This document shows positions 2,803 through 55,869 of a DNA stretch of 64,000 nucleotides, one piece after another. Under the pieces are notes generated by a model. It searched no databases, was not told the origin of the DNA, and saw nothing but the letters and a program-made list of their open reading frames with translations. The translations under genes were made by a program, and so were the position numbers. The DNA comes from a virus. The stretch spans positions 1-64,000 of IMG/VR virus record IMGVR_UViG_3300050821_018287; one strand, given 5' to 3'. Position 1 is the first letter of the stretch. Each line of letters opens with the position of its first letter.

Positions 2803-3621
2803 CTACGAAGGCGCCGTCCACGCCTCCCAAATTGGGTACCCGCTCATCGGCATCCAGAAGTAGCCCCCAGCGCCCCAGCTCGTCCCCCACTGGTTGACGC
2901 CCTTGTAGAGCTGACGCCCTGCGTCGTAGCCGATGAGGAGGACTCCGTGACCACCGTGGAGCGCCTCCTTCGACGGATCCGGCACCGGCAGCACCCCGCC
3001 CGCGCCCAGGCCCTCGAAGGAGTCGTAGACGGGAATTGCAATCGCAATGGGGAGGCGCGCGTTGAGGACGGCCATCCCATTCTTCGGGTCGTCCAAGTCC
3101 ACCATCGTCGGCTGGCCGATCCGGTATTCCACCGCCGCAGCGTCGGCGATGTTGGGGATGGGCTCGGCGGGATCCTGGTCGTAGGGCATGTCCGTCTCCG
3201 GGCACACCCCGTACGCCTGGAGCACGGCAAACTCGTCGGCCATCGTCGCCCCCGAGTCCGCGGGGAACGTCCCCTCACCCATCCTCGTCCGCGCGTACAG
3301 GTACGCTGGGGAGAGCCGGAGCGGGAGCGGCACCGGCACCATCCCCTCCTTCCACTCCAGCGCCGCCATCTGGACCTCGCGGAACTGCGCGGTGGCGAAG
3401 CCGGTGCACGCACCCTCCCCGCCCTGATTCCGGATGCCCGCGAAGAAGGGGGAGAGATCCGCCCCAGCCGGCGGCGCCACCCCCATCGAGGCCGGGACCG
3501 GCGACGGCAGGCCCTTCGCCCAGCGATCCATCGACGCCTTCACGAGTGGGTGGTTCAGCGGCGACGGGCGCAGCTTGTAGGTGTGTTCCGAAGTCCCGAG
3601 GGGACGGTGGGCGAAGTGCAT
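2803..3621 (-). CDS. Papain-like (C1A) cysteine peptidase
   Basis: The 272-residue protein has all parts of the C1 catalytic machinery in order: RNQGGEGACTGFA with oxyanion Gln66 and nucleophile Cys72, LHGGHGVLLIGYD with His225, and GVNQWGTSWGAGGYF with Asn243. No signal peptide or long propeptide is seen. It is the last gene of the leftward late region, 12 nt after a membrane protein gene. Phages rarely carry C1A peptidases; possible jobs are processing of virion proteins, attack on host proteins or help in lysis. Confidence 0.85.
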   Translation of the reverse strand: MHFAHRPLGTSEHTYKLRPSPLNHPLVKASMDRWAKGLPSPVPASMGVAPPAGADLSPFFAGIRNQGGEGACTGFATAQFREVQMAALEWKEGMVPVPLPLRLSPAYLYARTRMGEGTFPADSGATMADEFAVLQAYGVCPETDMPYDQDPAEPIPNIADAAAVEYRIGQPTMVDLDDPKNGMAVLNARLPIAIAIPVYDSFEGLGAGGVLPVPDPSKEALHGGHGVLLIGYDAGRQLYKGVNQWGTSWGAGGYFWMPMSGYPIWEAWTAPS

Positions 3622-3633
3622 GGCGCTTCCCCC

Positions 3634-4677
3634 CTACCAGCCCAGGTAGAGCGTGTTTCCGCGGATGACTCCCGAGGGGCCCTTGGCGATGCCGACCGGG
3701 GGCGAGTAGGGGCCGAGCGCGAACTGGATGCTGAAGACGAGGAGGAGGAAACCCGGACCGCCCGGGAAGGCTCCGGAAGCGTCGAGCAAGGCGTGCCCGT
3801 AGCCGACGCCCAACAGCGAGTTGAGCGTGGTGAGGGCCACCGCCGCGCTGAGCTGTCCAAACTCCGCGCCGCTGGGCCCAGAGACGAGCTGCCCAAAGGC
3901 CATCCCGCTCACCGCCAGCATGTCGTAGGACTTCCCCAGAAGCGTCATCTGGAGCTGCGGCAGGGAGAAAGAGGCCATCATCCCCGCGCCCGCGCCGACG
4001 CTCGCCGGGTGCGGGTTTTTCCACTCGTACTGGAGGAAGGGGATGGTGGGGCCGACACTCATCGTGAAGGGGCCCACCTGGGTCTCCGCCCGCGCCGGGC
4101 GCGCGTAGAAGAGGCTCCCCACCAGGGCCAAAGCCACCATCGCCTTCACCACCGGCGCCGGGTTGAGCGGAGCCTGGACGCCGAAGATCTTGGTGGCGAG
4201 ATTGAATCCGCCGGCTGCGGTGACTCCGAGGACGAGCCCGTGGACGAGGAAGTTTAGGCTGAACGGAGCGCCCGCGTAGAGGCCGTTGCCGATCGCCGCA
4301 CCGACTCCCATCAGAAGGACGAGGATGGCCCCGCCGCGATCCGTCTTCAGGAAGGGACCCACCGGCGCCGGGATGGACGTCCCGTACTTCTTCGCCGCCC
4401 AGGTCAAACCGATGACCGCGAGCGCCGCCAGCAAGTGGTAGTTCTTCGAGTCGAGCGCCTGGAGGACGAGCTGCGCGTAGGCGTTGCCGTCCGCCGGGCT
4501 CGGAGGAACCGGGGGGATCGGAGGAGACAGGCCCGCATCCTGTCCAAACGCCTTGCTCGCGAGACCGAACACGAGAAGAGGCAGAGCGAAGATCACCGCG
4601 AAGTACACCCCCAACCAGAACGGGCGGCGGTACACCGCGTCCATCGCGTCGTTGAATCCGTCGATCAGCTTTCGCAT
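3634..4677 (-). CDS. Multi-span membrane protein with internal signal-like segment
   Basis: This 347-residue protein has hydrophobic segments at about 20-44, 82-98, 116-134 and 142-158, then a second signal-peptide-like stretch at 178-198 ending in an Ala-x-Ala type site (VGSLFYARPARAETQ). The remaining 150 residues are Gly-rich with alternating hydrophobic strands and end in an aromatic residue (TLYLGW), as in outer-membrane barrels. It may join an inner-membrane part to an outer-membrane part. Its place beside wall hydrolase and lipoprotein genes suggests a lysis role such as holin or envelope fusion; this is inference. Confidence 0.7.
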   Translation of the reverse strand: MRKLIDGFNDAMDAVYRRPFWLGVYFAVIFALPLLVFGLASKAFGQDAGLSPPIPPVPPSPADGNAYAQLVLQALDSKNYHLLAALAVIGLTWAAKKYGTSIPAPVGPFLKTDRGGAILVLLMGVGAAIGNGLYAGAPFSLNFLVHGLVLGVTAAGGFNLATKIFGVQAPLNPAPVVKAMVALALVGSLFYARPARAETQVGPFTMSVGPTIPFLQYEWKNPHPASVGAGAGMMASFSLPQLQMTLLGKSYDMLAVSGMAFGQLVSGPSGAEFGQLSAAVALTTLNSLLGVGYGHALLDASGAFPGGPGFLLLVFSIQFALGPYSPPVGIAKGPSGVIRGNTLYLGW

Positions 4678-4878: not shown

Positions 4879-5390
4879 CAGGAGTGGGTCCAGAATTCGA
4901 GCTGCGGCATCATCGCGGGCGTGAAGACGGAAGTGAAGGAGATCCCGTACCCGCAAGACGCTCCCGCCTGGGCCAAGGTCCAATCCGGCATCACCCACGC
5001 GATGTGGCCGTGGCCCGTCGGGTTCCGCCAGGTGACGAGCGTCGGCTGACCGAGGGCTGCTGCCGCCTTCGCCGCGTCCGCGTCCACCTGGGTCCAGCCG
5101 TAGTCGACACCCTCCGTGCCCAGCCAGAGGATCCCTTCATTGATGACCAGCTCCTGCATCCCGTAGCTGCCGTTGAGGTTGTTCCACCAGTGGGGTACCT
5201 CGCAGCACAGGGCGCGCGAAGCGTCCCAGGCGGCGATGTTGCAGAAGGTGTCCCCGCCCGCCGGCTGGTAGCGAAGGCTCGTGTCAAAGTTGAACTGGCG
5301 CAGCACCGCCTCGTAGCGGGCCGGGCTCCGGTTGTCGTTGCCGTTGGACGACACGAAGCGCATCGGGCGAAGACGATCGAGGACATTCAC
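4878..5390 (-). CDS. Putative cell-wall hydrolase (Cys/His amidase-like endolysin)
   Basis: The 170-residue protein resembles a phage and bacterial Cys/His hydrolase family: GDTFCNIAAWDASRAL with candidate nucleophile Cys50, PHWWNNLNG, and later WRNPTGHGHIAWV with His127 or His129, then an AGASCGYG segment. The order Cys then GHxH is that of NlpC/CHAP-type peptidoglycan amidases and peptidases. No signal peptide is seen, so export would need a holin. It overlaps both neighbours by 1-4 nt. Confidence 0.6.
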   Translation of the reverse strand: MNVLDRLRPMRFVSSNGNDNRSPARYEAVLRQFNFDTSLRYQPAGGDTFCNIAAWDASRALCCEVPHWWNNLNGSYGMQELVINEGILWLGTEGVDYGWTQVDADAAKAAAALGQPTLVTWRNPTGHGHIAWVMPDWTLAQAGASCGYGISFTSVFTPAMMPQLEFWTHS

Positions 5391-5626
5391 GGCGGCGCCT
5401 CCATCGAGATGTTGAACTGCGCGGCCTGCCAGATCTGCTCCGCGTTGCAGGATATCCCCACCTTCGTGCAGTACGTGAGCGAGTCAGCGAGACAGCTCTG
5501 ACGCGCCGCGTAGGGCTCAAGGGAGGAGTTGACGCACATCTCCAACCGCGTGATCGCCTCCTGGCGCAACCCCCACTGAGTGGGGGCGCAACCGAGGAAG
5601 ACGACGAGCGCGAGCGCCCACTTCAT
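5387..5626 (-). CDS. Small lipoprotein A of lysis-like cluster
   Basis: The ATG at 5626 overlaps the preceding stop (ATGA). The 79-residue product begins with a short signal peptide and lipobox LVVFLGC (Cys14) and contains four further Cys residues. Outer-membrane lipoproteins next to endolysins are often o-spanins (Rz1-like), but a paired inner-membrane coiled-coil partner is not adjacent here. Role therefore open. Confidence 0.65.
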   Translation of the reverse strand: MKWALALVVFLGCAPTQWGLRQEAITRLEMCVNSSLEPYAARQSCLADSLTYCTKVGISCNAEQIWQAAQFNISMEAPP

Positions 5627-5811
5627 CGAGACACCGGGCTGCACGTCATCTCCGGCCACTGCCAAACCGGCTCGACGCGACAGAGGTAGCCCGCGTCGTA
5701 AGGATCCCCCGGAAGACTCTCGAAGTGCACCGGCAAGAAGGAGTCGTACGGTGGACTGCGGCCGAGGTAGGCGCAAGAGGACAGCGCCAGCAATGCCAGC
5801 GCCAGCCTCAC
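5623..5811 (-). CDS. Small lipoprotein B of lysis-like cluster
   Basis: A GTG at 5811 within a GTGA overlap gives 62 residues. The signal peptide ends in a lipobox LLALSSC (Cys13). The mature part is Pro/Tyr/Trp-rich with two Cys. It is translationally coupled to lipoprotein A, which suggests they act together in the envelope. Confidence 0.6.
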   Translation of the reverse strand: MRLALALLALSSCAYLGRSPPYDSFLPVHFESLPGDPYDAGYLCRVEPVWQWPEMTCSPVSR

Positions 5812-6254
5812 CGGTATTCGGTGACGCCGACCGCGTTGGCCGAGGTGCCGGCGGCGGAGATGCAGAAGATGTTGCCCAGCGTCGTCGCGGCTGGCGAGAA
5901 GGACGAGGGCGGTGTGGTGGTGAAGCACCCCACATTGAAGGTGACGCAGGAGGGGATCGCCGCGGTGCCCGCGGGGATGACTCGGCCCTGCGTCGGGCCC
6001 ACCGCCGCCGTCACCGTGGACGGGCCACAGAAGATCGCCACCGTGTCACTGTTGCAGATCTCGATGGCCTGCCGAGGCTGCATGCAGGACGCCGGCACTG
6101 CCGTCGCCGTGTTCGCCACCGTCATGTGGATGGAAGCCACCGCAGGCGTCGAGGAAACCATCTGCGCGTGGGCGATGGCCTTCACCCCGACGCACGCAGC
6201 GATGAGCGTGCCGAGGATGAAGGCGGAGACGGCGACGAGCGAGGCGCGGCGCAT
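5808..6254 (-). CDS. Secreted or membrane-anchored protein, unknown
   Basis: The ATG at 6254 gives 148 residues with a signal peptide or anchor at about 6-30 (SLVAVSAFILGTLIAACVG, then IAHAQ). The mature part is Thr/Ala/Val-rich with about six Cys residues, consistent with a small disulfide-stabilised beta domain. The protein at 43597 has a similar plan (signal peptide, Thr/Ala-rich, late Cys). Confidence 0.65.
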   Translation of the reverse strand: MRRASLVAVSAFILGTLIAACVGVKAIAHAQMVSSTPAVASIHMTVANTATAVPASCMQPRQAIEICNSDTVAIFCGPSTVTAAVGPTQGRVIPAGTAAIPSCVTFNVGCFTTTPPSSFSPAATTLGNIFCISAAGTSANAVGVTEYR

Positions 6255-6910: not shown

Positions 6911-8512
6911 CTATTGCTTTCCAACGTAGCATCCGTTGGTGAAGACGAGAGGGGGATTGGAGGCGTTGATCGTGGCGTACGAAGTCGTAACGGGAGAGGA
7001 GTCCGCCCCGTTTGCCGTCGCGTTTCCGGTCGCTCCCGTGGCGGACGTGTTCGTGCTCGTGTAGATCGCCCCGGGACCGGGACCGCAGTTGACACCCCAC
7101 GTCCCGGAGTTGCCTGATGCGTTGGCGAAGCCGTTGCCGATTCGAGCAATGGCCCCACGCTGGACCTGGAGCGCCGCGCCGGAGGTTGATGTGGCGTAGG
7201 CGTTGCCGAGGCTGGCGATGCGCACGTACTGGGGACCGATCAGCAAAATCGCCGCAGCGCTGCCGCCGAGGATGTAGGACGAAAGAACGTTGATCTGGCT
7301 GGAGCCGCCCTCGATCTCCAGACCGTTTCCGACCCCCGAGATGAAAACACCGTCGAAGACGGCGCCAAACTTGACTCCCTGGAGGTCCACGGCGCCGCGA
7401 GCTGACCCACCCGCCGTCTGGACCACGGTGCTGCGAATCAGCTCGATGTAGGAGTTGTCCGCGGCCAGAACGCCCTGGTTGTTCACGGCGGTGCTCTGGA
7501 ATTGGCAACCCCAGAAGCGCACATTGGCGGTGTGAACTCCGACGGCAGCGTGACCACCCGGGGTGCTTTGGACGACCCGCACGTAGCGGACCTCCAACGT
7601 GGAGGAAGTGTTCTGGTTGAAACCAGCGATGGAATTGCTCGCGCCCATTCCACCGACATTGGAGATGGAGAGCGTTTCTTGGGGACCGTCCTGACCGATC
7701 CCACCGTCCGCCAACATCGTCTCCGGGTGGAGGATGGTGGACGGCTGCACAATCTCGTATTGCGTCGTGCTGTCCGGAGGTGCCTGCATTGGCTGAGTGG
7801 CGACGTCCGACAGCGTGAGAACCGTCGCCGAATTCGCATCAATCGGCCAAATGTTGGTGTCAGCCGCGGGAGAGATGGACTGCGGGTTGAACCCGCTGCC
7901 CGAGAGGATCTTCACGAACATCCCGGCGAACTGTCCTGGCGTCCACCCAGCGCCGGCCTGGGTGATGGTGATGAGGGACGCGACATCGGTTCCGGACGTG
8001 GCGGCGAACGGGCCAGCAACAATCGTCCCGGGTGAGCCCAACGGCGCGCCTTCGATCAGCACCTTCGGCATGATCGAAGAGGTGTCGAGCGTGGTCACCG
8101 CGGAGCCGCCGTCAGTGGGGTACTCCGGACCGTAGCCGGTGCCCATAATCAGGCCGACGCTGAGATCCGGAAGGTAGCTGGTGAGGGAGAAGGTCCCCGG
8201 GAGACCCTTCTCCAAGTGGCTCGCAGTCACCACGTTGTCGATCAGGTTCGGCGGACCGTAGTAGTTGCCTGCGTCGAGCTGGACCCGCTCCAACGCCTGG
8301 ACAATCTTCGGCAGTTGGGCGAAAGCGAAGTTGGGGCTCTTGCACGGAAAGGTCGTGCCGCACCCACCGACGTCGATTCCCGTGGCCTGGTCCACCGACA
8401 GCAACATGAAGTTGGGGCCGGTCCGGAAGTCGCGAACACGGAGGGAGGAGTTGATGTCGGTGACTTGCCCCAGGACGAGCGTCGTCACGAGAAGCGAAGT
8501 CCACCTTTTCAT
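6911..8512 (-). CDS. Beta-helix (pectate-lyase-like) spike or depolymerase
   Basis: The 533-residue protein starts with a hydrophobic signal-like segment (TSLLVTTLVLG). Its second half consists of repeated short strands with Gly/Asn/Val turns (for example VRFWGCQFQSTAVNN, VFDGVFISGVGNG, NVLSSYILGGSAA), the pattern of right-handed parallel beta-helices found in tailspikes and polysaccharide-cleaving enzymes. It is the last gene of the fibre block. A host-surface glycan is the likely target; the catalytic residues are not recognisable. Confidence 0.6.
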   Translation of the reverse strand: MKRWTSLLVTTLVLGQVTDINSSLRVRDFRTGPNFMLLSVDQATGIDVGGCGTTFPCKSPNFAFAQLPKIVQALERVQLDAGNYYGPPNLIDNVVTASHLEKGLPGTFSLTSYLPDLSVGLIMGTGYGPEYPTDGGSAVTTLDTSSIMPKVLIEGAPLGSPGTIVAGPFAATSGTDVASLITITQAGAGWTPGQFAGMFVKILSGSGFNPQSISPAADTNIWPIDANSATVLTLSDVATQPMQAPPDSTTQYEIVQPSTILHPETMLADGGIGQDGPQETLSISNVGGMGASNSIAGFNQNTSSTLEVRYVRVVQSTPGGHAAVGVHTANVRFWGCQFQSTAVNNQGVLAADNSYIELIRSTVVQTAGGSARGAVDLQGVKFGAVFDGVFISGVGNGLEIEGGSSQINVLSSYILGGSAAAILLIGPQYVRIASLGNAYATSTSGAALQVQRGAIARIGNGFANASGNSGTWGVNCGPGPGAIYTSTNTSATGATGNATANGADSSPVTTSYATINASNPPLVFTNGCYVGKQ

Positions 8513-9456: not shown

Positions 9457-12009
9457 TCAGATCTCCGCGTCTGCGGCCCAGTGACCGGTTCCATCCCCAG
9501 TTGGTGTCTGGTTGGCTCCGCTGTTGTTGACCACCTCAATCGCCCCTGTGGAGATGCCGGCTCCAGCAGCGACGCTACCGGCAGCCCCGGCCAGACCAGC
9601 GATGTCCCATTGCCCGGCCGTGCCGTTGGATCGCCAGAAAGACGCGAACGGAGTCGCTCGCTTCTTCGAAAGAAAGCGCGGCCCGAACGAGTACCGCGTG
9701 CCGTTGGCGTAGACGACCCCGCCGGGCGTAGAGCCTACGAACTCACCCGCTGCGCCGACCGATCCAGGAGCGGTGTCCAAGTCGTAAGTCTTCTCGTAGA
9801 ACCGCTGACAGAGAGCAATCTCTCCCGCCTCGCTGACGCCTGCGAGTGAGTACGGAGGGGCTCCTGCTGCCGAAGCACCTGGGTTGAGCTGAACCTGAGA
9901 AACTTCGAACCAGTCATTGGCGCCAGCAGTCCCGACAGGCGTCCAGTAGAACGCTAGCGACGCCTCGGTGATGCCCGAGCCCAAGGCAGGAATGCTCAAA
10001 GCAAATTGCTGGTACGTGCCGGTGGGCGTGACGGTGGTAGCCAGCGGGGTGGCCGGTCCCGAGTTGTAGGCTAGGGCCACCCCGTTTGAGCTGATGACGT
10101 CCTCACCCGCCGTTCCTGGTGCACCACCAAGACCTGTCCCGCCCCCGGTGTTTGTGCCAGTGGCGAGTTGAACGTTGAGATGTCCACTGGCGCCGCTGAA
10201 ATTCGCGCCGACTCGCGCCCAAAAGACGAGAACGGCTTGCTGTCCGGCCATCTGTTTCACGAAGTCGCGGTCAATCTCCTGGTTCAGGACGATCCGATCC
10301 GTACCAGTGTTGGCATTGTTCCGCTGCACGCGGCAACCGCGAGTCGCCAGGAGTCCCGCAATCGAAGCGACAGGAAAAGCGGGGGTAGATCCCGAGTTGG
10401 CTTGGGCGAGTGTCGCGGTGGTCGCGGCCGAGCCAGTGACGCACTCCCATCGATCCGCCGTGTAGAGAAGAGTCATGGCGGAGGTGACAGGATTTCCCGG
10501 CGCAGTCCGGGTCCCGCTGGTGTTGACAGCGAAGGAGGATCCCCGCTGCCAAAAGTCGAAGCGCGAGTTGATGACGAAGTTGCGCTCACTGTCAGCGTAG
10601 GTTTTCGTCGCCGCGTCCTGCGGGTTTACCGGGTCCAGGACATTCTGGACCGGCCGATTGCCTCCGAGCCCGATGAGCGCGCCCGCGGTGGTGACTTGCC
10701 AGTAGCGGGTGTTGTTGGCGAGGAAGGTGGCGGGGTGGTTGGACGTCGCTCCAAACTCAACGTCACCTACGCCTGACGACTGCACCGCCCACGCGCGCGT
10801 CCCATCCGTCCCGTAGATCACGGAGCCGCCGCGGGCGATGTTGAAGTTGCCGTTGCCGGTGAAGGTGAGATCCCCGTTGGCGTTTTCGAGGATGTTCCAA
10901 TCGGGGAAGTAGATGCCCTGCGTGAGGGAGCCGGACGACTTGAAGCGGAGGCTGCCGATCGAATCCATCGACGTCAGGAGCGTCCCGGCGTTGTTCAACC
11001 ACTGCGACAAGTCCCCCGTCTGCCCCGCGGCGCCCTTGAACTGGAAGAGAGGATTGGCGGCGTTGGCCAGCGCGTTCAGGAATTGAACGGTGCCGGTGAA
11101 GGGAGTGGGAGTCGTGGTGTCGACGCGGAAGGCGTTGGTGAGCGTCCCGCCGGCCCCGAAGATGAGGTAGGGGGCGTTGATGGGAGTGATCTCGAACCCA
11201 CCCACCGCGTCCAGCCACACGTCGCTCGTCCCACCAACAGCGCCCGGACCCATGACGGTGCCGATCTGCCGCTGGATGGTCCCCGCCGTCGTGGAGAGCG
11301 TTGCCGTGTTGGAGACGTAGACCGGCGTGCCGGCCGCCGCGGTGAAGGGCGCGCCCGCGTAGCGGCCGATGTACCTCACCACCATCAGCGCCCCGTTCGC
11401 GACGGTGGTGCTACCGAAGGTGTCCGAGACGACCACTCCAAGCAAGCTGTCCACGTTCGCGAGCGCGGTGGCCGGCGCGGTGACGAAGCCGGGGACGGTC
11501 TCCTGTCCCGGGAGCCCAGTCTTGATGGTGGGGTTGGAGGTGACTTGGACGACAGTGCCGGCGGCGAGCGCACCGCCGCTCTGGTTCAGCCCAACGAAGG
11601 GTGGCGGGTTGGACAACAGCGCGTCGTCTCCGCGCAGCAACGTGTTCATCGACGGCTCGGCCCACCCGCCGGTCGTGCTGTCCTGGATCGTCTCGCCCGG
11701 CGCGGGGAGCCGGTTCCTCGACTTCAGAAGACGGATGCCGACGATCTGCGTGTCGCTCTGCTCTGACGGCAACGTGGCGTTGACGGTGAGCTTGATGAGG
11801 TAGGTGCCCTCCTTCTTCGGGGTGAAGGTGGGATTCTGGATGACCGAGTTGGAGAGGAGATCCGACGGGCCCGGAGGTTGGGTGAGGATGACCCAGGCGT
11901 AGGTAAGCTCACCACCGACGTTCAGGTTGTTGAGCTGAACGATGGTGTTGATCGGGAGGTCGTCGTTGGAGCCGGCGACCGCGTTGATGGTGATCTTCGC
12001 CTGGGCCAT
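9457..12009 (-). CDS. Long tail fibre protein
   Basis: This is the longest product in the window (850 aa). It begins with an immunoglobulin/PKD-like domain (about 20-95, ending YLIKLTVNATLP). The middle is an extended Gly/Thr-rich fibre with FQFKGAAGQTGDLSQWLNN and SIGSLRFKSSG elements common in phage fibres. At about 490 comes NFVINSRFDFWQRG, the entry of a C-terminal receptor-binding module seen in many fibres, followed by a jelly-roll-like region. It probably binds the host surface. Confidence 0.75.
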   Translation of the reverse strand: MAQAKITINAVAGSNDDLPINTIVQLNNLNVGGELTYAWVILTQPPGPSDLLSNSVIQNPTFTPKKEGTYLIKLTVNATLPSEQSDTQIVGIRLLKSRNRLPAPGETIQDSTTGGWAEPSMNTLLRGDDALLSNPPPFVGLNQSGGALAAGTVVQVTSNPTIKTGLPGQETVPGFVTAPATALANVDSLLGVVVSDTFGSTTVANGALMVVRYIGRYAGAPFTAAAGTPVYVSNTATLSTTAGTIQRQIGTVMGPGAVGGTSDVWLDAVGGFEITPINAPYLIFGAGGTLTNAFRVDTTTPTPFTGTVQFLNALANAANPLFQFKGAAGQTGDLSQWLNNAGTLLTSMDSIGSLRFKSSGSLTQGIYFPDWNILENANGDLTFTGNGNFNIARGGSVIYGTDGTRAWAVQSSGVGDVEFGATSNHPATFLANNTRYWQVTTAGALIGLGGNRPVQNVLDPVNPQDAATKTYADSERNFVINSRFDFWQRGSSFAVNTSGTRTAPGNPVTSAMTLLYTADRWECVTGSAATTATLAQANSGSTPAFPVASIAGLLATRGCRVQRNNANTGTDRIVLNQEIDRDFVKQMAGQQAVLVFWARVGANFSGASGHLNVQLATGTNTGGGTGLGGAPGTAGEDVISSNGVALAYNSGPATPLATTVTPTGTYQQFALSIPALGSGITEASLAFYWTPVGTAGANDWFEVSQVQLNPGASAAGAPPYSLAGVSEAGEIALCQRFYEKTYDLDTAPGSVGAAGEFVGSTPGGVVYANGTRYSFGPRFLSKKRATPFASFWRSNGTAGQWDIAGLAGAAGSVAAGAGISTGAIEVVNNSGANQTPTGDGTGHWAADAEI

Positions 12010-12023
12010 TGCGGGCTCTCAGT

Positions 12024-13196
12024 CTAGTAGCTGTAGGCGCCGTTGATGAAGAGGACGGTGGGGTTGGCCAGCGTCGCCGCCGTGTCCGGGTCATCGCGGA
12101 TTCGGAACATGGCGAAGGGCGCGCCCAGGACGGCGCCGGAGCCGATGTCGCCGTTGGTGGGGTTGCTCGACGCGGCGCCGGAGATCCTCGCCAGGTCCGT
12201 CGCAGTGAGGTTGCCGAAGACGGGCGGAGAGAAGCTGAGCTGCTCCTTCGTGGGGCCGGTCGGTGAGACGAAGTTGCCGGTGTCCCCGCCGGGGATGAGC
12301 TGGGTGATGGGGCCGCCGAGGAGGTAGACAAACATCGCCGCTCGCCCGATGTCCACCGAGTCCCCCACGAAAACGACGTTGAGACCCGGGGGCGCGATGA
12401 GCTGGTTGACGGTGGGGAGGTTGGGGCCGCCGCCGGTGGTGGAGATGGACACCTGGGCGGTGAAGGCGCCGACGTTGCCCGGGAGGAGCTGGGCGCGCTG
12501 ATCGACGATGTTGGTGTCGGTGACGCTGACGGTGGCGTTGGTGACGTGGACGCGGGCGATGATGACGTAGCCGGGGGAAGCCGAGGGCACCGCCGCGGTG
12601 CCGACGGTAGCCGCGACACCTACCTTGTAGCCGATGCTGGAGGTGCTGTTGGCTGGTGAGACGACTCGCCCGTGGCGCCCGTTCTGGTTCCAGGCGAGGG
12701 TCTTGTTGACGCTGGTGGAGGTGAAGGCACCGGTGCCGGCGTTGAAGACGTCCCGGTTGGCGGCGTCCTGGAGACGCCGATCGTAGGTCACCTCGATGAT
12801 ATCGTAACGCTCCTGGCCCACGCCCGGCGCTGCGTCGATCGCCACCGTCTCGTCCGCGGTGAGGGAGAGAGGCTTGTAGGCTTGGAGATCGTCCACCCCC
12901 ACGATGCCGCCGATCGCCGCGGGGACGTCGGAGGCGTTGTAGAAGAAGCCCAGGCCCGCCTTCAGAAGGACCGTGAAGGCGGCGGGAGTCGTCGGACGAA
13001 TCCGGAACCCGTCGGCGAGAAAAGCTGCCGTCGGAGGCGGAACCGACGAAGGATCGACGATGGAGTTGCGCTTGGAGAAGACGCGCTGGAGGTACTCCCG
13101 AAAGGACTGGTTCAGGCGGGATTGCGCCGTGTTCAGGTCCGTCGAGGCCGGGCGCTCGTTGAAGTTGAGGATCTCTTGGTCGAAGGCGTTGTTCAT
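12024..13196 (-). CDS. Tail fibre or baseplate-edge structural protein
   Basis: The 390-residue protein has an N-terminal helical part (residues 1-50, Asn/Gln/Arg-rich), then beta-rich Gly/Val/Thr repeats. The element FRIRPTTPAAFTVLLKAGLGF and the following ERYDIIEVTYDRR are typical of proteins that connect fibres to baseplates. It sits directly after the second gpJ-like gene, a usual place for gpI or fibre-adaptor proteins. Confidence 0.6.
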   Translation of the reverse strand: MNNAFDQEILNFNERPASTDLNTAQSRLNQSFREYLQRVFSKRNSIVDPSSVPPPTAAFLADGFRIRPTTPAAFTVLLKAGLGFFYNASDVPAAIGGIVGVDDLQAYKPLSLTADETVAIDAAPGVGQERYDIIEVTYDRRLQDAANRDVFNAGTGAFTSTSVNKTLAWNQNGRHGRVVSPANSTSSIGYKVGVAATVGTAAVPSASPGYVIIARVHVTNATVSVTDTNIVDQRAQLLPGNVGAFTAQVSISTTGGGPNLPTVNQLIAPPGLNVVFVGDSVDIGRAAMFVYLLGGPITQLIPGGDTGNFVSPTGPTKEQLSFSPPVFGNLTATDLARISGAASSNPTNGDIGSGAVLGAPFAMFRIRDDPDTAATLANPTVLFINGAYSY

Positions 13197-13199
13197 GGG

Positions 13200-14774
13200 T
13201 CACTGTCCCGAGAGTTCAATCGTGGCAAAGATCCCCGCTGCCTTCACCTGTTGAAGGGTCTGGTAGAGGGTGTTGTACACCGCATTCTTCTGGACGTCGA
13301 TCCCGTCATAGAAGCCCGGGATCTCCGCCGGATTCAGGCCCGCCGAGGGTACGTCAAACGCGGACGGCGCGCGGTGCCCTCCGGAGACCGGGCTTTGGAG
13401 CTGCTGAGCATTCTCCGCCGTGTCGTCGTACACCATCCCATAGTCGGTGAGCGGCTGGAGGTTGTCGACGAGGACGAAGAAGGCGCCGCGCAGGGTGTTC
13501 TCGTCCAACCACCGGTTTCGAAACGGAGTGGGTGGACGCGGGTCGTCGTAGACGAAGCAGTTGGGGTCGTAGTTGGAGCCGGGGATCGTCGTGTTCGGCG
13601 CGTCCCAGCACGTCTGGAAGGTGATGTTCCAGGTCTCGATGACGGTGAAGTTGGCGCTGAAGGGGGAAAGGATCTGCTTGGCGTTCCGGTTGATCGCGTC
13701 GGGGCTGATGGTGTCCGGAAGCGTCCGGACGCGCGCGCGGTAAGCCGCGTCGATCTCGCCCGCATTGCGGATGATACCGCGGTCCACTCCATGCTGGTCC
13801 AGCGCCGGGTCCGCCCCGCCGGTCGTCGGCTGAGCCTGGGAGACGGTGATGGATGGATCCCCCAACGGTGGGTTTTCGATGAGGGTGGAGATGGTATCGA
13901 TGTCCCCCAGGAGCGCGGTTCCGTCCCCGGCGATGACTGTTCCGGGTACGTTCCACTCGTACCCCTTCGCGACGGCGACGACGGGTACGGTGAAGGGTCC
14001 CAGGTCATTCTGGTTGAAGGTGACGTCCTGCGTCGTGAAGAAGCTCCGACCGCCGCTGCTCGTCGTGACGATCGTCCCCGCCTTGACGGTGACGGTGAAG
14101 GTCACCTCGGACCAGGAGATCTCCCCGTTGTTCACGTCCGGCACCACCGCCGCCGCGTTCACCACGTCGAGGGTGGAGGGGCTGACGAAGGCGGCGATCT
14201 GGAAGGTGCCGTTGTTGGTGAGCGCGTTCGCGTCGGAGATCTGGAGAAACTGGCCCACGTCATTCGCCGTGAAGCCGGAGAGCCCGGTGACGCGCATGTT
14301 CCCCGCTGCCGCACCGGATACGATGGAAGCGGCGGCGCCCTTCGGCCCCAGCGGCACCCCGTTCGTCAGGACCGAGCCGCGCTGAAGCTGGATGTTGCCC
14401 GCCGCGGCCATCCCCCCGGAGGATGTGCTGATGAAGGAGTCACAGCCGAGGTTGGCGAGGGCGGTGGAGAGCCGCGCCATCATCTTCCCGATCGCCTGGA
14501 AGATTTCGTAACCCGGCCCGGGATTCTTGAGCGCAGCGAGGTAGCCCTCCGGGAAGATGCGGCTGAAGAGGGAGAGGAAGTCGGCCTGGGTGAAGGCGGT
14601 GATGGGGCAAGGCAACTGCGGGGAAGCCGTCGCCGCCGCGTTGGGGGGCTGGACGATCGTCGGTGTGACGATGAGCGTCCACGAGAGGGGGTGGTTGGGC
14701 GTCGAGCCCGGGTTGAACGGGTTGAAGCTCGGCGGCGCCGGATTGGGGGCGAAGAAGCTGAAGCTGCCGGGCAT
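13200..14774 (-). CDS. Baseplate J-like protein, large variant
   Basis: The 524-residue protein carries the gpJ signature in its middle: a repeat-like beta domain (TFTVTVKAGTIV, VPVVAVAKGYEWNVPGTV) followed by IDAAYRARVRTLPDTISPDAI, matching the 'E(S)D..YR.R' helix of J/gp47 family proteins. A unique N-terminal 130 residues and a C-terminal extension distinguish it from the shorter J-like protein at 16175. It probably forms a second wedge-type ring of the baseplate. Confidence 0.7.
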   Translation of the reverse strand: MPGSFSFFAPNPAPPSFNPFNPGSTPNHPLSWTLIVTPTIVQPPNAAATASPQLPCPITAFTQADFLSLFSRIFPEGYLAALKNPGPGYEIFQAIGKMMARLSTALANLGCDSFISTSSGGMAAAGNIQLQRGSVLTNGVPLGPKGAAASIVSGAAAGNMRVTGLSGFTANDVGQFLQISDANALTNNGTFQIAAFVSPSTLDVVNAAAVVPDVNNGEISWSEVTFTVTVKAGTIVTTSSGGRSFFTTQDVTFNQNDLGPFTVPVVAVAKGYEWNVPGTVIAGDGTALLGDIDTISTLIENPPLGDPSITVSQAQPTTGGADPALDQHGVDRGIIRNAGEIDAAYRARVRTLPDTISPDAINRNAKQILSPFSANFTVIETWNITFQTCWDAPNTTIPGSNYDPNCFVYDDPRPPTPFRNRWLDENTLRGAFFVLVDNLQPLTDYGMVYDDTAENAQQLQSPVSGGHRAPSAFDVPSAGLNPAEIPGFYDGIDVQKNAVYNTLYQTLQQVKAAGIFATIELSGQ

Positions 14775-15185
14775 CTACGGATTCTCCTGTCCCGTGACGT
14801 CGACCGCGTTGGGGATGAAGGTGGGGGACGCGGGCCACCCGCCGATCCGCAGGATGTTCGCGTACTGGAAACCTCCCGCAATCGCTGTCCGACTTCCGGT
14901 GTAGTTGGCGCTAAAGTTCAAGCCGTCGTGCACCACCTCGTACATCCCCAGGACCGGGTACTGCGCGAGGATGATGATGCTGCGGAAGGCGTTGTTGGCG
15001 GGGCTCGTGACTTGGAAGGCGATGGGGGAGGTGGGCTGAAGCGCGGAGCCGGTCGCCGGGACGATGTTGGAGACGACCGGAGGCGCAGAAGGGCCCGCCA
15101 AGGCGATCCCCAGCTCGATTGAATGCGATCCCACATTGGCGAATTCGATGCCTTTGTGGTTCGACAGCTCGACAGGATTGGCCAC
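14775..15185 (-). CDS. Small beta-rich structural protein
   Basis: The GTG at 15185 follows GAGGAGAG on the coding strand, giving 136 residues. Its strands and Pro-rich turns (PVVSNIVPATGSALQPTSPI) suggest an Ig-like or jelly-roll fold. It is located between baseplate genes. Function unknown. Confidence 0.6.
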   Translation of the reverse strand: MANPVELSNHKGIEFANVGSHSIELGIALAGPSAPPVVSNIVPATGSALQPTSPIAFQVTSPANNAFRSIIILAQYPVLGMYEVVHDGLNFSANYTGSRTAIAGGFQYANILRIGGWPASPTFIPNAVDVTGQENP

Positions 15186-15195
15186 TGCTCTCTCC

Positions 15196-16164
15196 TCAGA
15201 GCGTCGGGTTGGACCCGTCCCAAGGAACGGTGCACTGGTTGATGTAGAGGCGGTCGTTGGTGGTGACCAGCGAACCGACGGAGCCGGTGGGTCGAGGCGC
15301 CGCCGTCGAGCCGGTGCATCCCCAGTAGCAATCCTGGGCGAAACCCTTCGCGAAGATTGGAGCGGTGACTCCCACGAAGAGGATCTCCAAAGCACCGTCT
15401 TTCGCGGTGCTTGGATCCGTCGCCCAGTTGTTCACGTTCGGAGGAGCGGAAGAGGTGACGTTCTGCGCCACACCGCCCACGCTTCCGAACACCCTGGAGC
15501 CTCCCACGATGTCCGAGCCGAAGACGCTGCTGGAGGAAGCCCCGACGTAGTTGAAGATCGGATCCGTGTCGCCCGAGTTGAAGACCGCGGAGGTCACCGG
15601 GTCCGGCGACATGATGAACATGCCGTGGGTCTGAGAGCTGGCGCCGGCCCCAATGGTCCACCCGACGCTGAAGAAGGGGTAGGCGGTGATCGCGGTACCG
15701 ATGCCTCCCGGCTGAACCGCGGTACCAACCGACTGCGCGGCGCAAGAGAAACGGTAGGCGCCGTCCGTGCCGAAGAAGGCGGAGAAGCTCGGCGACGCAT
15801 CCGTTCCAGCTCCGAGCAACGTCTGGCTGTCGGAAGCGCTCGGCACCTGGGTCGCGCTCGGAGAGCCGGTGACAAACTTCGCGAGCGGCGAATAGGTGAC
15901 GCGCCAGTTGGGGTTGGACGTGCCGCGCTGGAAGACGTACTCGCGGCGGGTGCCGGGATCCTGCACCCGGAACCAAGCGCTGTTGTTGGCCAGGCCTCCC
16001 CCGCCAGATCCTCCGCTGGAGATCTGGTTCCCCGACGAGTTGTAGGTGGTGCCGTCCGAGCTGGACTTCACGACCCAACCCGCGGCGATCAACCGTCCGA
16101 GGATGAGAAACATCGCCGCGGCGCCGGTCGCCGGGGTGTTGTTGGTGGAGAATTGCCAGGCCAT
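15196..16164 (-). CDS. Hypothetical virion protein
   Basis: The 322-residue protein is rich in Ser, Gly and Thr with short strands and several aromatic residues. An early Gly-Ser stretch (GNQISSGGSGGGGLANN) looks like a flexible linker after an N-terminal attachment domain of about 45 residues. Position in the baseplate/fibre operon implies a virion component. Confidence 0.6.
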   Translation of the reverse strand: MAWQFSTNNTPATGAAAMFLILGRLIAAGWVVKSSSDGTTYNSSGNQISSGGSGGGGLANNSAWFRVQDPGTRREYVFQRGTSNPNWRVTYSPLAKFVTGSPSATQVPSASDSQTLLGAGTDASPSFSAFFGTDGAYRFSCAAQSVGTAVQPGGIGTAITAYPFFSVGWTIGAGASSQTHGMFIMSPDPVTSAVFNSGDTDPIFNYVGASSSSVFGSDIVGGSRVFGSVGGVAQNVTSSAPPNVNNWATDPSTAKDGALEILFVGVTAPIFAKGFAQDCYWGCTGSTAAPRPTGSVGSLVTTNDRLYINQCTVPWDGSNPTL

Positions 16165-25929: not shown

Positions 25930-28155
25930 CTACTGCGACTTGACCTGGACGGTGCCGTTGCCGACCTGGGCCTGGATGACGATGAAGTCGGCGGTGGCCA
26001 GCATCTGGACCTGGACGATGATGACGAAGACACCCTGCGCGGTCAGATCCGGCGTGTTGCCCGAGATGTCGTCCACCGCGAACGCCTGGATGCGCTGCGC
26101 GGCTGGGTTGTCCGGGGAGAGGAGCGTGTTGAGGAAGGTGGTGGTCTCCTCCGTCGCCGCATCCTGGAGCCCCTGAGTGAGAGGGAGCTTCGAGATCGGC
26201 TTCAGCCCCACCGCCAGGCTGTCCTCGATGAAGTCGGCCATCCTCCGACGGTTGACGTTGGTGGTGTTCGCCACCAAGGAAGTCGTCACTCCCGACTGGA
26301 TGATCGGCCCAACATCGGCGTCGATCTTCAGCGCCATGATGCCGTTCTGCCGGTAGGCGATGTAGTCGTTCATCGCCAGCGGAGTCGTCACGTTGCGCTG
26401 GATGCCGGTGATGGGAGCCAGGACGGTGGTGACCGGCGGAGACTCCTGCGCCGGGTTCCGCTCGGGAGCGAGGTTGGAGTAGATGGAGGCGATCCACCCG
26501 TCCAGGTGCGTGTCGAGGATGCCGTTGGTGTAGAAGTTTCCGTCAGCACCCTTGATGTTGGTGAAGCCGACCGCCTCCGGAACGAAGGTGGTGCCCCCTG
26601 GCCAACCGTAGCTCACGCGCTCGTCGCGGTTGCCTCCGGCGCCCGGGTCCGTCGCGCCGATGGCCGCGGAGGTGGTGTTCACCGAGCTGAACTCCGGCGA
26701 GAGGATCGTGGTCATCCCGCGTCCGAGCGCGGAGCGCTGGTCCACCAGGGTCCGCAGCGCGGATCGGATGTTGGCGGAGTGGCGCGCGGCGAAGGTGACG
26801 TTGGTGTTGTGGGCGGGGTTCTGCTCCGAGAGCATCGCGTTGATGGCGGTGGAGTAGAGGGTGTCGATGGCCGCGGCGTTGACCGCGTTCGGTCCCTGGA
26901 CGGCCGCCGTGAAGGTCAGGCCACCCGCCTGGGTAATCATCGTCAAGCCCGACAGCGGATCCCACGTCGAAGCGGTGGGGGCCGGCGGGATGATCGTCGG
27001 AGGGAGCTGGGTGTTGGCGGGAATCGTCGCGTCCAGCGGTCGGGCGGGGACGGTGAAGCCGGCCGCGGCGCTGAAGATCTGCTGCCCGCCGGTGTCGCCG
27101 TCCGTGGCCGGCTGGAGCCGCCAGGGGAGAGCCGCTCCGGCGACCCAGTTGGAGGCGGTGAAGTTGCTCCCGTTCAACTGCTCGATGACGAGATCTCCGG
27201 TGTCGGTGAAGGCGTTGACGCGGTAGGTGCCCGCGTCAGTCCCCAGCGCTCCACCTCCAGAGAGGACGCCCAGGACGAGCATGTCACCGACCTGGACCGG
27301 CTGACCGTTGTTGGCGGTCTTGAAGCTGGTGAGGGAGAGGTACTCCACCGCCGTCGAGGCGACGTTGGAGCCGGTCTGGTTGAAGGTGAAGGTCGTCCCG
27401 GTGACTCCCGGGAGGACCGTCACCGGCCCGGCCGGGAAGTTGGCCTCACCGGGGGCGATGAAGAGGGTGACGCCCGCGACGATCCACGAGGGCACCGCCG
27501 CGACGGTCGCCGTGACGAGGTTTCCGCCGGTCCGCACCAACCCGCCGATCCCCACCGACAGGCCGATGGAGAAGACTTGGGTGGCGGCGGGAAGCCCGGT
27601 GGGCACCACGTTGCCGTCGATGTTCGCGACGTAGGGGCCGAAGTTGGTGAAGGCGACGCGGCCCGCGTTGCGGACGCGGTTGCTGCCGTTCTGGAACTGC
27701 TTTCCCGCGAGCACCACCGCGCCCTGGCCCGGGACGACGGGCTGCGGCTGGGTGGCGGAGATGTTGGTGGGAAGCTGGCGGATGTAGCGGACGGCTTGGG
27801 CCGAAGCGAGGTTGACCGGGACGATGACGAGGGAGGTGTAGATCTTGTTTCGGAGGGCCACGAAGCCGCTGCCGCCCGCGTTCCCGAAGTCGCCCAGAAA
27901 TTCGTCGAAGGGGCCGGCCTTGTTCAGGTAGTCCTGGGAGCTGAAGACCTGGGTGGGGTTCGGCGCGGTGGAGACGACTCCGCCGGACACCGACACCCCG
28001 TAGGTCATGTCGGCGAATTCCCCGACGCAAGCCACCTGTCCGCCGTTGACGCCGTTGATCGCCCCAGGCGGCGGGAGGTCGACGATGATCACACCTTCGA
28101 TGAGGGTGATCTGCTGGACGGTGGGGAAGAAATTGAAGCGTCGGACGAAGCTCAC
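25930..28155 (-). CDS. Contractile tail sheath protein
   Basis: The 741-residue protein has sheath family features: an N-terminal strand region, a large variable outer region, and a conserved C-terminal half with LHLDGW-like segments (DTHLDGWIASIYSNLAP), LAMNDYIAYRQNGIMALK, ANTTNVNRRRMADFIEDSL and a final strand DFIVIQAQVGNGTVQVK. That last strand donates to neighbouring subunits. Typical sheaths are 400-700 aa, so insertion domains are likely. It is followed by tRNA and terminator. Confidence 0.8.
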   Translation of the reverse strand: MSFVRRFNFFPTVQQITLIEGVIIVDLPPPGAINGVNGGQVACVGEFADMTYGVSVSGGVVSTAPNPTQVFSSQDYLNKAGPFDEFLGDFGNAGGSGFVALRNKIYTSLVIVPVNLASAQAVRYIRQLPTNISATQPQPVVPGQGAVVLAGKQFQNGSNRVRNAGRVAFTNFGPYVANIDGNVVPTGLPAATQVFSIGLSVGIGGLVRTGGNLVTATVAAVPSWIVAGVTLFIAPGEANFPAGPVTVLPGVTGTTFTFNQTGSNVASTAVEYLSLTSFKTANNGQPVQVGDMLVLGVLSGGGALGTDAGTYRVNAFTDTGDLVIEQLNGSNFTASNWVAGAALPWRLQPATDGDTGGQQIFSAAAGFTVPARPLDATIPANTQLPPTIIPPAPTASTWDPLSGLTMITQAGGLTFTAAVQGPNAVNAAAIDTLYSTAINAMLSEQNPAHNTNVTFAARHSANIRSALRTLVDQRSALGRGMTTILSPEFSSVNTTSAAIGATDPGAGGNRDERVSYGWPGGTTFVPEAVGFTNIKGADGNFYTNGILDTHLDGWIASIYSNLAPERNPAQESPPVTTVLAPITGIQRNVTTPLAMNDYIAYRQNGIMALKIDADVGPIIQSGVTTSLVANTTNVNRRRMADFIEDSLAVGLKPISKLPLTQGLQDAATEETTTFLNTLLSPDNPAAQRIQAFAVDDISGNTPDLTAQGVFVIIVQVQMLATADFIVIQAQVGNGTVQVKSQ

Positions 28156-53509: not shown

Positions 53510-53824
53510 CTAGGAACGCTTGAGAACCAGCATCACCGCCGCCGCCTTCACCGCCTCCACCAACCCATTCATCGTCATGTGGTACTGCACTTCCCGCTCC
53601 TCCACTTCGAGCCGCCACGGTCTCCACGCCACCCGGGACACCACCAGCAAGCACTCCCCCGTCTTGGTCTCAAAAGTTATGTAAAATTTCCCCAGGCGTT
53701 GCCGCCGCTGCGACTTCCGGGCTGGAACCACTTCCCATCCGCCCGGTGGATACGCGGCGGTGGACACGAGGCCCGTCTCCGCCTTCAGGAGGCCCATCAC
53801 GCGATTTGCTTCATTCTCGGACAA
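53510..53824 (-). CDS. Array gene A1 (subfamily A)
   Basis: A TTG at 53824 with GGAG 8 nt upstream gives 104 residues. It has the subfamily A plan: N-terminal helix (NEANRVMGLLKAETGLV), beta-rich centre with aromatics (GKFYITFETKTGECLLVV), and C-terminal helix (GLVEAVKAAAVMLVLKRS). It is the last gene of the array (53510-58419). No known family; see the findings. Confidence 0.6.
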   Translation of the reverse strand: MSENEANRVMGLLKAETGLVSTAAYPPGGWEVVPARKSQRRQRLGKFYITFETKTGECLLVVSRVAWRPWRLEVEEREVQYHMTMNGLVEAVKAAAVMLVLKRS

Positions 53825-53825
53825 G

Positions 53826-54176
53826 CTACTGGCTCCCTCGGAGCCAAGCCCGCGCAATTCTTACCTTCATCTCCCAGACGACATCCCGGAGCGTCGCATG
53901 CTTCGAGTCGGGCTCATTCCGGTAGACGAGGGAGATGCTCAGCACCCACCGCGCCTTGTCCCGGTAGAGCCAGCCCTCGTGGATGGGGGGAGGCTCCATG
54001 TGGGTGATGCGGATCCACGCAATCGGCCCCACCGTCCCGAAGGTGAAGACGACCGCCCGTGCACCTTTCACTCCTGGCGTCCCAGAGGTTCCAATAACCT
54101 CCGACTGCCAGAAGGTGCCCCGCTCGAACTAAGCCTTCACCGCCTTCAGGACTCTCCCCGCCGAGGTCAGCTTCAT
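53826..54176 (-). pseudogene. Array gene A2, interrupted by in-frame TAG at codon 16
   Basis: The frame from ATG 54176 to TAG 53826 is 116 codons long except for one internal TAG (54129-54131). Codons before and after it align to the neighbouring A3: SAGRVLKAVKA, stop, FERGTF against SARRVIRVVLARFEPGTF. The rest has the family plan and ends VVWEMKVRIARAWLRGSQ. Either the gene is broken, or only a shorter product from the GTG at 54071 (81 aa) is made. TAG is used as a normal stop elsewhere, so recoding is unlikely. Confidence 0.65.
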
Positions 54177-54583
54177 CCCACCTCCAGGGCCCGCCGCGCC
54201 ATCTGCGCTTTCATTTCTTGTACAACTTCTGAAAGCCGACGGTGGTAGGTGCTGGGACCGTCCACTACCACCGATCTCTCCCCCATCCCAGCGTCCGGGT
54301 TGCGTTTGAGCCCGGAGAGGTTCCACCCCTTCAAGAAGCCCACCGGGCTCTCCCACGTCACGAAGCTCCCCATTCTCCCCTTTGGATCCAGCCGGTTGAG
54401 AAGGAAGCGCGCCCACCCATCCCAGGACGGGAGGGTGAAGGAGATCGCCCGCGGAGAAGCCTCTCCCCCACCCTTCGACTGGCGCTCCCGAAGCGGGGGA
54501 ACCACCTGCCCATGCCGGAAGGTCCCCGGCTCGAAGCGGGCCAGCACCACCCGAATGACGCGGCGCGCCGAGGAGGGTGTCAT
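54173..54583 (-). CDS. Array gene A3 (subfamily A)
   Basis: The ATG at 54583 overlaps the previous stop. The 136-residue product has the N-terminal helix SARRVIRVVLARFEPGTF, a Trp/Phe-rich beta centre (FTLPSWDGWARFLLNRLD), and the C-terminal helix LSEVVQEMKAQMARRALEVG. It is the closest relative of the interrupted A2. Confidence 0.6.
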   Translation of the reverse strand: MTPSSARRVIRVVLARFEPGTFRHGQVVPPLRERQSKGGGEASPRAISFTLPSWDGWARFLLNRLDPKGRMGSFVTWESPVGFLKGWNLSGLKRNPDAGMGERSVVVDGPSTYHRRLSEVVQEMKAQMARRALEVG

Positions 54584-54879
54584 AGGCCCGACAGTGCCCG
54601 GTACGCGAGGTGGGCCTGAATCGCCTGGACAGCCTCCAGAAGCGTCCGAACGGGGATGTTGGGCTCCGCGTACCGGAACGCGCTCACAATCCAACAGCGG
54701 CCCGCCAAGAGCTTCTGGCGCTGCAACGTGTAGACGACCTCCCCGCTCGTCCCGGCCACCGGAAATTCGAGCGTCTCCCCCGCCCGGTTCGCCCACCACC
54801 GCACGCTCGGGTGCGCGAAGGCTCCCGAGAGCCGCCTCTGCACCGCGTACACCACCCGCCAGGCCGAAGCGTGGGTCAC
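54580..54879 (-). CDS. Array gene A4 (subfamily A)
   Basis: A GTG at 54879 overlaps the upstream stop. The 99-residue product starts with ASAWRVVYAVQRRLSGAF and ends with LLEAVQAIQAHLAYRALSGL, the same helices as A3, around a short beta part (EVVYTLQRQKLLAGRCWIVS). Confidence 0.6.
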   Translation of the reverse strand: MTHASAWRVVYAVQRRLSGAFAHPSVRWWANRAGETLEFPVAGTSGEVVYTLQRQKLLAGRCWIVSAFRYAEPNIPVRTLLEAVQAIQAHLAYRALSGL

Positions 54880-55214
54880 GGCCTCTCCAAGCACATCCGC
54901 GCCAGCTCCGCCTGGACGAGCCCGACGACCTGGGAGAGGTTCAAAATCCAGCCCGTCGGATCCTCCGAGGTCCAATGGAGCTGTCGGACGGAGTGGCGCA
55001 CCTGCCACACCCGGCGGTACTTCGGGCTGTTGGAGGGAAAGAGCTGGGGGAAGATGTGCCTCGGGAGCCGAATGCGCCGAAGGATGAAGACGCAGGGATC
55101 CCCCGGAGCCTGGACGTGCACGGTCAAGTCGTGCCAGTCCGAGCTGGACAAGACGCACCGAAAGCCCGGCCCGAGGGCACGGTTCAGCACCTCCATCACC
55201 AACCGCTCCGTCAC
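54876..55214 (-). CDS. Array gene A5 (subfamily A)
   Basis: A GTG at 55214 overlaps the upstream stop. The 112-residue product has ERLVMEVLNRALGPGF, a beta centre (DLTVHVQAPGDPCVFILRRI) and the C-terminal helix LSQVVGLVQAELARMCLERP. Function unknown. Confidence 0.6.
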   Translation of the reverse strand: MTERLVMEVLNRALGPGFRCVLSSSDWHDLTVHVQAPGDPCVFILRRIRLPRHIFPQLFPSNSPKYRRVWQVRHSVRQLHWTSEDPTGWILNLSQVVGLVQAELARMCLERP

Positions 55215-55588
55215 GACAGCCTCAGAACGTGCTCGGCCACGCGTGCCTGAAGCTCGCAGTGCAGCTCCCGAAGGTGCTCGAACCGCCAAGGTACGAGCCG
55301 CCGTCCTTTCCCGAAGGGACCTTCATCCACGTACAGCCACCAAGAGGTGCCCCGCTCCTTGTCCACTCCGGGCCGGAAGGGGCGCCGATGGATCTCGAAG
55401 CGCTGCTCGGGCGTCCGGAATTCCACCGCAGGACGGATGATGCCAGTGCCGGGGATCGTCGAGTGGAGCTGGACCTGGACACACACCGTCCCGTCGTTGC
55501 GCTGCTCCACCCCAGCCCACCCCGCGTCGGAGGAGCCGAGAAGCTTGAGGACGAGCTGCATCGTTCGGTGGGCGCAACGCAGTGTCAT
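55211..55588 (-). CDS. Array gene A6 (subfamily A)
   Basis: The ATG at 55588 overlaps the upstream stop. The 125-residue product has CAHRTMQLVLKLLGSSD, beta strands (TVCVQVQLHSTIPGTGIIRP, GTSWWLYVDE) and the C-terminal helix HLRELHCELQARVAEHVLRL. Function unknown. Confidence 0.6.
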   Translation of the reverse strand: MTLRCAHRTMQLVLKLLGSSDAGWAGVEQRNDGTVCVQVQLHSTIPGTGIIRPAVEFRTPEQRFEIHRRPFRPGVDKERGTSWWLYVDEGPFGKGRRLVPWRFEHLRELHCELQARVAEHVLRLS

Positions 55589-55869
55589 TCCCCGCGCCTC
55601 AGCGCCCGATGCGCCTGATCCGCCTGAATCAGCTCGACCGCGGTGCGGAGACTCCGAGCGAAGTCGGCCAACCAAGGTGCCAACGTTCCCGTCTGCTGCT
55701 CCACCATCCACCCCCGGTGGCCCCGAACGATGGCCTTGTACAAGAGAAACTTCACCTTGGAGACGTACAGGATGAAACGCCCGTACCCGTCCGAGTGGAC
55801 CAGCTCCCCGCGAAGCTTGTCCGACATCAGGTGCACGCACCGAGCCTGCCTCGCGCGGGTCCAGCTCAA
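55585..55869 (-). CDS. Array gene A7 (subfamily A)
   Basis: A TTG at 55869 overlaps the upstream stop (TTGA). The 94-residue product has ARQARCVHLMSDKLRGEL, then strands (GRFILYVSKVKFLLYKAIVR) and the C-terminal helix SLRTAVELIQADQAHRALRR. Function unknown. Confidence 0.6.
   Translation of the reverse strand: MSWTRARQARCVHLMSDKLRGELVHSDGYGRFILYVSKVKFLLYKAIVRGHRGWMVEQQTGTLAPWLADFARSLRTAVELIQADQAHRALRRGE

Follow-up and report, generated by a model that had tools for sequence, protein, structure and literature searches.

The DNA analysed here (the window, 64,000 bases, positions 1 to 64,000 of the IMG/VR virus record IMGVR_UViG_3300050821_018287) carries at 3634-4677 on the minus strand a gene, P0001, for a protein of 347 amino acids (aa) in two parts. 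Our best explanation, held tentatively and at just short of an even chance, is that P0001 is a membrane protein of the lysis cassette in which a holin-like N-terminal module continues, in the same frame, into a second, exported protein. P0001 is one open reading frame (ORF), its N-terminal half is homologous to proteins that stand alone in relatives, and the gene is placed towards the end of the late operon, with an endolysin-like ORF on one side and a papain-family peptidase gene on the other. Because no described holin family matches it, P0001 is classed by its sequence features as holin-like only.

Gene structure and coding signal

The first-pass annotation, made from the sequence without database searches, had placed a two-part envelope protein at 3634-4677, and the open frame of 347 aa lies exactly there. 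The start codon is ATG, preceded by AAAAGGAGAAGTCCG, with AGGAG upstream. A codon model built from the window's other called genes (at least 150 aa) gave frame-0 log-likelihoods of 0.44 nats/codon for residues 1-45, 0.54 for 46-166, 0.64 for 167-197 and 0.52 for 198-347, and +0.78 for the junction (codons 160-180), so that the codon signal is in frame throughout. The other two forward frames stayed at or below 0.04 nats/codon in all five segments (-0.75 and -0.16 at the junction). One reverse frame was positive everywhere, at +0.05 to +0.24 in four segments and +0.55 over the 21-codon junction. P0001 is more than a chance ORF: frame-0 codon usage carries both halves and the junction between them.

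Two genes could have been joined here through an error in sequencing or assembly, or because a stop codon was lost recently and without function, in which case there would be two proteins in life, as in the relatives L001, L002 and L003 described below, where two genes are found. A TGA in the +1 frame, which begins 8 nucleotides (nt) ahead of an ATG at codon 180, also fits such a join. The strong frame-0 signal across the junction speaks against it (though one reverse frame is positive there too), as does the lack of a good ribosome-binding site at codon 180, and we regard the explanation as very unlikely. Codon usage makes a frameshift at the junction unlikely; a lost stop is possible in a metagenome contig. 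A start near codon 180, which had been proposed as a check on the two-part reading, was also considered. The ATG is present, but the GGTGGTGAAGGCG in front of it makes a poor ribosome-binding site compared with the AGGAG of the gene's own start, and a separate start is unlikely.

The N-terminal half and its relatives

Residues 1-45 (4543-4677, minus strand, as are all parts of the gene) consist of a basic n-region and a hydrophobic segment, a probable cleavable signal peptide that ends AFG↓Q (arrow, cleavage position). Inspected by eye, this end shares with four relatives a small residue at -1 and Q at +1 (VHG↓Q, VLA↓Q, VFG↓Q and AQA↓Q). Residues 46-166 (4180-4542) form a Pro-rich linker and a membrane core of three segments with the motifs TWAAKKYG and TxxGG, and are homologous to stand-alone phage proteins. 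Residues 167-197 (4087-4179) are a linker and a second signal-like segment. The hydrophobic 19-residue segments and their mean Kyte-Doolittle hydropathy (KD) are 22-40 (2.43), 82-100 (1.09), 117-135 (1.86), 143-161 (1.57) and 174-192 (1.78), the last directly followed by what hydropathy and eye suggest is a signal-peptidase-I-like site (ARPARA↓E). Among the called genes between 2.8 and 9.5 kb, only P0001 has more than two hydrophobic segments with KD of at least 1.25. Lys and Arg make up 10 of 54 residues in the loops assumed to be inside and 1 of 41 in those assumed to be outside (Fisher p 0.02); helices were taken as about 19-43, 80-95, 115-135, 141-161 and 179-192 with hand-set boundaries, so this charge bias is supportive only. 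It would place the C-terminal half outside the cytoplasm. By prediction from segments and charge bias, P0001 has some of the features used to recognise a holin, namely at least one transmembrane helix and basic cytoplasmic loops.

IMG/VR yielded three relatives of P0001 (L001-L003), 35-38% identical within residues 56-184, and a second scan, with an alignment as query, led to these three contigs again. When 18 records were searched directly (L001-L003, one phage record and 14 whose capsid is related), only L001-L003 matched, at 35-37% identity, and two scans of bacterial genomes gave no relative of alignment A1. The relatives stand alone at 191 aa (L003), 182 aa (L002) and 166 aa (L001), each with a signal-peptide-like segment, a Pro-rich linker and three hydrophobic core segments. 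The gene that follows starts at the stop codon in L001 (0 nt) and after 3 nt in L003; as read, L002 has an extra ORF between the two. The product of this following gene is about 110 residues long; it starts with its own signal peptide, which has ARAEG or something similar at its end, and has a hydrophobic segment at the C-terminus. By eye it has only the style of signal peptide in common with the C-terminal half of P0001. A separate signal-peptide gene adjoining the membrane-protein gene, as in L001 and L003, is the arrangement expected before such a fusion. One further observation on L003 is an HNH-like ORF, recognised by eye, at 5306-5809 on the minus strand, opposite to its neighbours and between the peptidase-like ORF and the holin-like gene; it is perhaps a mobile endonuclease in a lysis cassette.

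The capsid of the window phage is shared by 14 contigs at 56-64% identity. The lysis-side stretch was read in two of them, G013 and G014; in the stretch of G006 the last genes resemble those for tail fibres. In G013 a protein of 189 aa (P0004) encoded after the tail genes has a signal peptide, an acidic linker and a core that can be aligned to the family across 75 columns. For this alignment hhalign gave a score of 31.6 (probability 41.6%), and the best of 100 core shuffles, in which the first 84 residues were left unshuffled, reached 24.2. P0004 is likely, although not certain, to be homologous to the N-terminal family. The gene after it has weak matches to phrog_736 (unknown function, E 3.3e-5) and phrog_739 (Rz-like spanin, E 0.0032). 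All four relatives resemble P0001 in their signal peptide, Pro-rich or acidic linker and TxxGG core (KKYG in L001-L003), and differ from it in lacking the C-terminal half; in L001-L003 a secreted protein is encoded separately downstream. These stand-alone proteins may form a small holin-like family, a candidate that matches no described family here. The helical inner-membrane first half (residues 1-160) of the first-pass annotation stands, as a protein of its own in other phages, the internal signal-like segment is found at 174-192, and the two-part architecture is strengthened by homologs with the first half alone.

A protein of a similar plan was noticed in G014 (L028, 6514-7077, minus strand, 187 aa), with a membrane part, an internal lipobox (LLVGC, by eye) and a Cys-rich exported part. 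Like P0001, it combines a membrane part, an internal export signal and an exported part in one ORF. It differs in its signal, a lipobox, and in its Cys-rich exported part, and no relationship to P0001 is evident for either half.

The C-terminal half

Residues 198-347 with the stop codon (3634-4086) are an orphan part, Gly-rich (16%) with Trp as the last residue, as first described. In the phage collection no relative of this half was found at E≤5, and a search of viral_contigs with exact peptide patterns, which has low reach, gave none either. Plasmids gave no relative with the whole of P0001 as query. Pfam gave no match to the C-terminal half at E up to 1, hence no peptidoglycan hydrolase was seen, and the best match among solved structures (E 0.99) was not meaningful. 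Three leads were set aside. A degenerate DNA pattern of the C-terminal end hit two stretches in viral_contigs, both by chance in unrelated ORFs. Matches in 7 of 201 genomes of the phylum of G018 (E≤0.01, best 3.8e-4; four of the seven without internal stops) were judged to be chance hits of Gly/Ala-rich sequence. An apparent likeness of the C-terminal end to proteins of myxobacterial phages was not borne out by the pattern search and is given no weight.

The same 150 residues had been called barrel-like, and the whole protein proposed either to link the inner and outer membranes or to be cleaved into two. Cleavage is plausible. An outer-membrane beta-barrel, and with it a link between the membranes, has no positive support from structure prediction or from amphipathicity, the latter a weak test. 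AlphaFold2 with four sequences gave the full protein a mean predicted local distance difference test (pLDDT) score of 43.8, with every residue of 164-347 below 50; the C-terminal part alone reached a mean of 38.9, with 119 of 151 residues below 50. The beta-amphipathicity z of this part is 0.52, at chance level, compared with 2.03 for OmpX, 3.54 for OmpW and 1.39 for PagP. For 14 other E. coli proteins the values lay between -1.85 and 2.32, and among the non-barrels LdtB scored 1.28 and TonB 2.32, higher than two of the barrels (assumed mature starts were used for the control proteins).

The C-terminal half might instead contribute two membrane helices. P0001 would then be a single polytopic, all-helical membrane protein in which the second signal-like segment is one more helix, with no cleavage and no outer-membrane part. 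Hydropathy in this half peaks at 229-247 (KD 0.92), 253-271 (0.99), 273-291 (1.31) and 303-321 (1.58), the last as strong as core segment 143-161 and followed by 26 residues. Both AlphaFold2 models place helices near 269-290 and 308-324, where hydropathy peaks too, and the chance-level amphipathicity and a content of only 6% charged residues agree with this topology. Against it, ARPARA↓E right behind 174-192 reads as a typical signal-peptidase site, 303-321 has Pro and several Gly near its beginning, and helices modelled at such low pLDDT carry little weight. We consider this topology unlikely, though a serious competitor. A prediction of one all-helical membrane domain had been named at the outset as the result that would refute the two-part reading; the models are too poor to count either way.

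A proposed fusion of a holin-like protein to an exported partner

For the fusion of a holin-like module to an exported protein, we infer topology, cleavage, export and lysis function as follows. The N-terminal module would be a three-helix, holin-like protein that enters the inner membrane via a cleavable signal peptide. The N-terminus would be inside, the signal peptide cut near residue 46 and the Pro-rich linker outside; the chain would then run through a helix inward, a basic loop inside, a helix outward, a helix inward and a basic linker inside, and the second signal segment would lead out again. The C-terminal 150 residues would be periplasmic, either still tethered or freed by a signal-peptidase cut near residue 197. 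The membrane module may permeabilise or depolarise the inner membrane and let the neighbouring endolysin and peptidase reach the wall, while the C-terminal part may have the outer envelope as its target or control the holin from the periplasmic side. Such a protein could have arisen when a holin-like gene was joined to a signal-peptide-bearing gene of the kind that follows it in relatives; with the second signal retained in the fusion, the partner would still be exported. The lysis or envelope role suggested earlier is consistent with the gene position, lysis itself being the conjectural part.

Several points weigh against this explanation. P0001 matches no holin family of Pfam, PHROGs or NCBIfam. 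Holins are very diverse, so that a missing family match is weak evidence. Since no relative of the C-terminal half is known, its export rests on one hydrophobic segment and the ARA↓E site, and segments 273-291 and 303-321 would also suit membrane helices. One example of the fusion was found. A search of P0001 against all 14 capsid-related records, most of them fragments, gave no match, and the corresponding stretch of G014 holds different genes, with no such protein seen. The adjoining endolysin is itself putative, deduced from a weak match.

Neighbouring genes and genome context

The ORF upstream of P0001 (4878-5363, minus strand) is a possible endolysin, with Cys and His in peptidase-like settings by eye. 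It has no family match of its own and is 33% identical to an ORF of phage record MW202637.1, whose best PHROG is endolysin at an E value of only 0.059. Downstream, 12 nt past the P0001 stop, lies a papain-family (C1) peptidase gene (2803-3621, minus strand; PF00112, E 3.1e-12). A small ORF at 5387-5644 (minus strand) begins like a lipoprotein (lipobox VFLGC by eye) and has no family match. The hydrolase and lipoprotein neighbours of the first-pass annotation are thus recognised in the peptidase and in this lipobox-like start.

P0001 could also be an envelope protein with no part in lysis, serving for example superinfection exclusion or receptor masking, and lie beside lysis genes by chance. 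It is long for a holin and lacks a holin-family match, and unassigned genes lie close by (5808-6254 and 6911-8512). Its place between the endolysin-like and peptidase genes near the late-operon end argues the other way, as does the setting of its relatives in L001-L003 downstream of small ORFs that look metallopeptidase-like by eye and match no family. A role outside lysis therefore seems to us rather improbable.

The window belongs to a record of 92,257 bases, and most called genes are on the minus strand. PHROGs matches identify terminase (phrog_38), portal, major head protein (phrog_1357) and tape measure, and Pfam a Baseplate_J protein. For the 25930-28155 protein, one weak match to an annotated tail sheath covers 14% of the length; the tail is probably contractile. 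The long, unassigned proteins at 9457-16164, which precede P0001 in the operon, are presumed from their place to be tail fibres. Scans of bacterial genomes with the capsid gave two loci, one a match of 35 residues. A capsid 54% identical to that of the window phage (L031, 10001-11395) lies on a 12.8-kb contig listed under a metagenome-assembled genome of Armatimonadetes, either a prophage or a phage contig binned there.

Other genes of the window were noted in passing. The product of the 1339-2025 gene (plus strand) looks secreted, is rich in Cys and has PDAG repeats; this style is known from myxobacteria and is a hint at the host only. The 246-707 gene (plus strand) has an HNH_3 match and an AP2 match below the cut-off, and is of the homing-endonuclease type. 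Eleven small called ORFs of 81-130 aa at 53510-58419 (minus strand) are perhaps a tandem family of paralogs; by eye, at least five have similar C-terminal ends (IQADQAHRAL, IQAHLAYRAL, VQAELARMCL, RAHMARILLQRG and IKAEDARDRL).

Comparison with known systems

No holin fused to an exported domain via an internal signal peptide was among the matches listed in a search of open-licence literature (titles and abstract beginnings). If P0001 is such a fusion, it would be a natural case in which to test how a phage protein with an internal signal peptide is processed. A stronger form, in which P0001 is a single-gene lysis protein with a holin module and an outer-membrane-acting module in one chain, split or bridged by the internal signal peptide, is a speculative and quite unlikely extension. 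If true, it would tie the disruption of the inner membrane to that of the outer in a one-to-one ratio. More generally, a fusion of a holin with an exported part would be one way in which spanin function could hide. Spanins were not found in 91 of 677 phages in a survey that suggests stop-codon loss as a source of unimolecular spanins (PMC6139136). The same text describes the unimolecular spanin gp11 of phage T1, one protein proposed to work at both membranes in lysis and without a periplasmic cysteine (PMC6139136). P0001 differs from gp11, as portrayed there, in having the inner-membrane part first and no cysteine at all (0 of 347 residues), hence no N-terminal lipobox cysteine, and so it falls outside the definition of a unimolecular spanin. 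For the C-terminal transmembrane domain of such spanins, segment 303-321 would be a candidate. The antiholin RI of phage T4 has, according to the title of the report, a cleavable signal peptide (PMC8385771); it is likened to P0001 by description only, as a lysis-control protein with such a signal, and unlike P0001 it is a separate periplasmic protein. Holin-endolysin fusions are already in print. In the natural fusion of Clostridium sporogenes (TpeE family), the C-terminal end is proposed to flip (PMC9527704). As proposed for P0001, a holin module there carries a second lysis protein, joined to its C-terminus by translational fusion (PMC9527704). The cargo of the TpeE fusion is an endolysin; P0001 instead has an internal signal-like segment and a C-terminal part of no known family.
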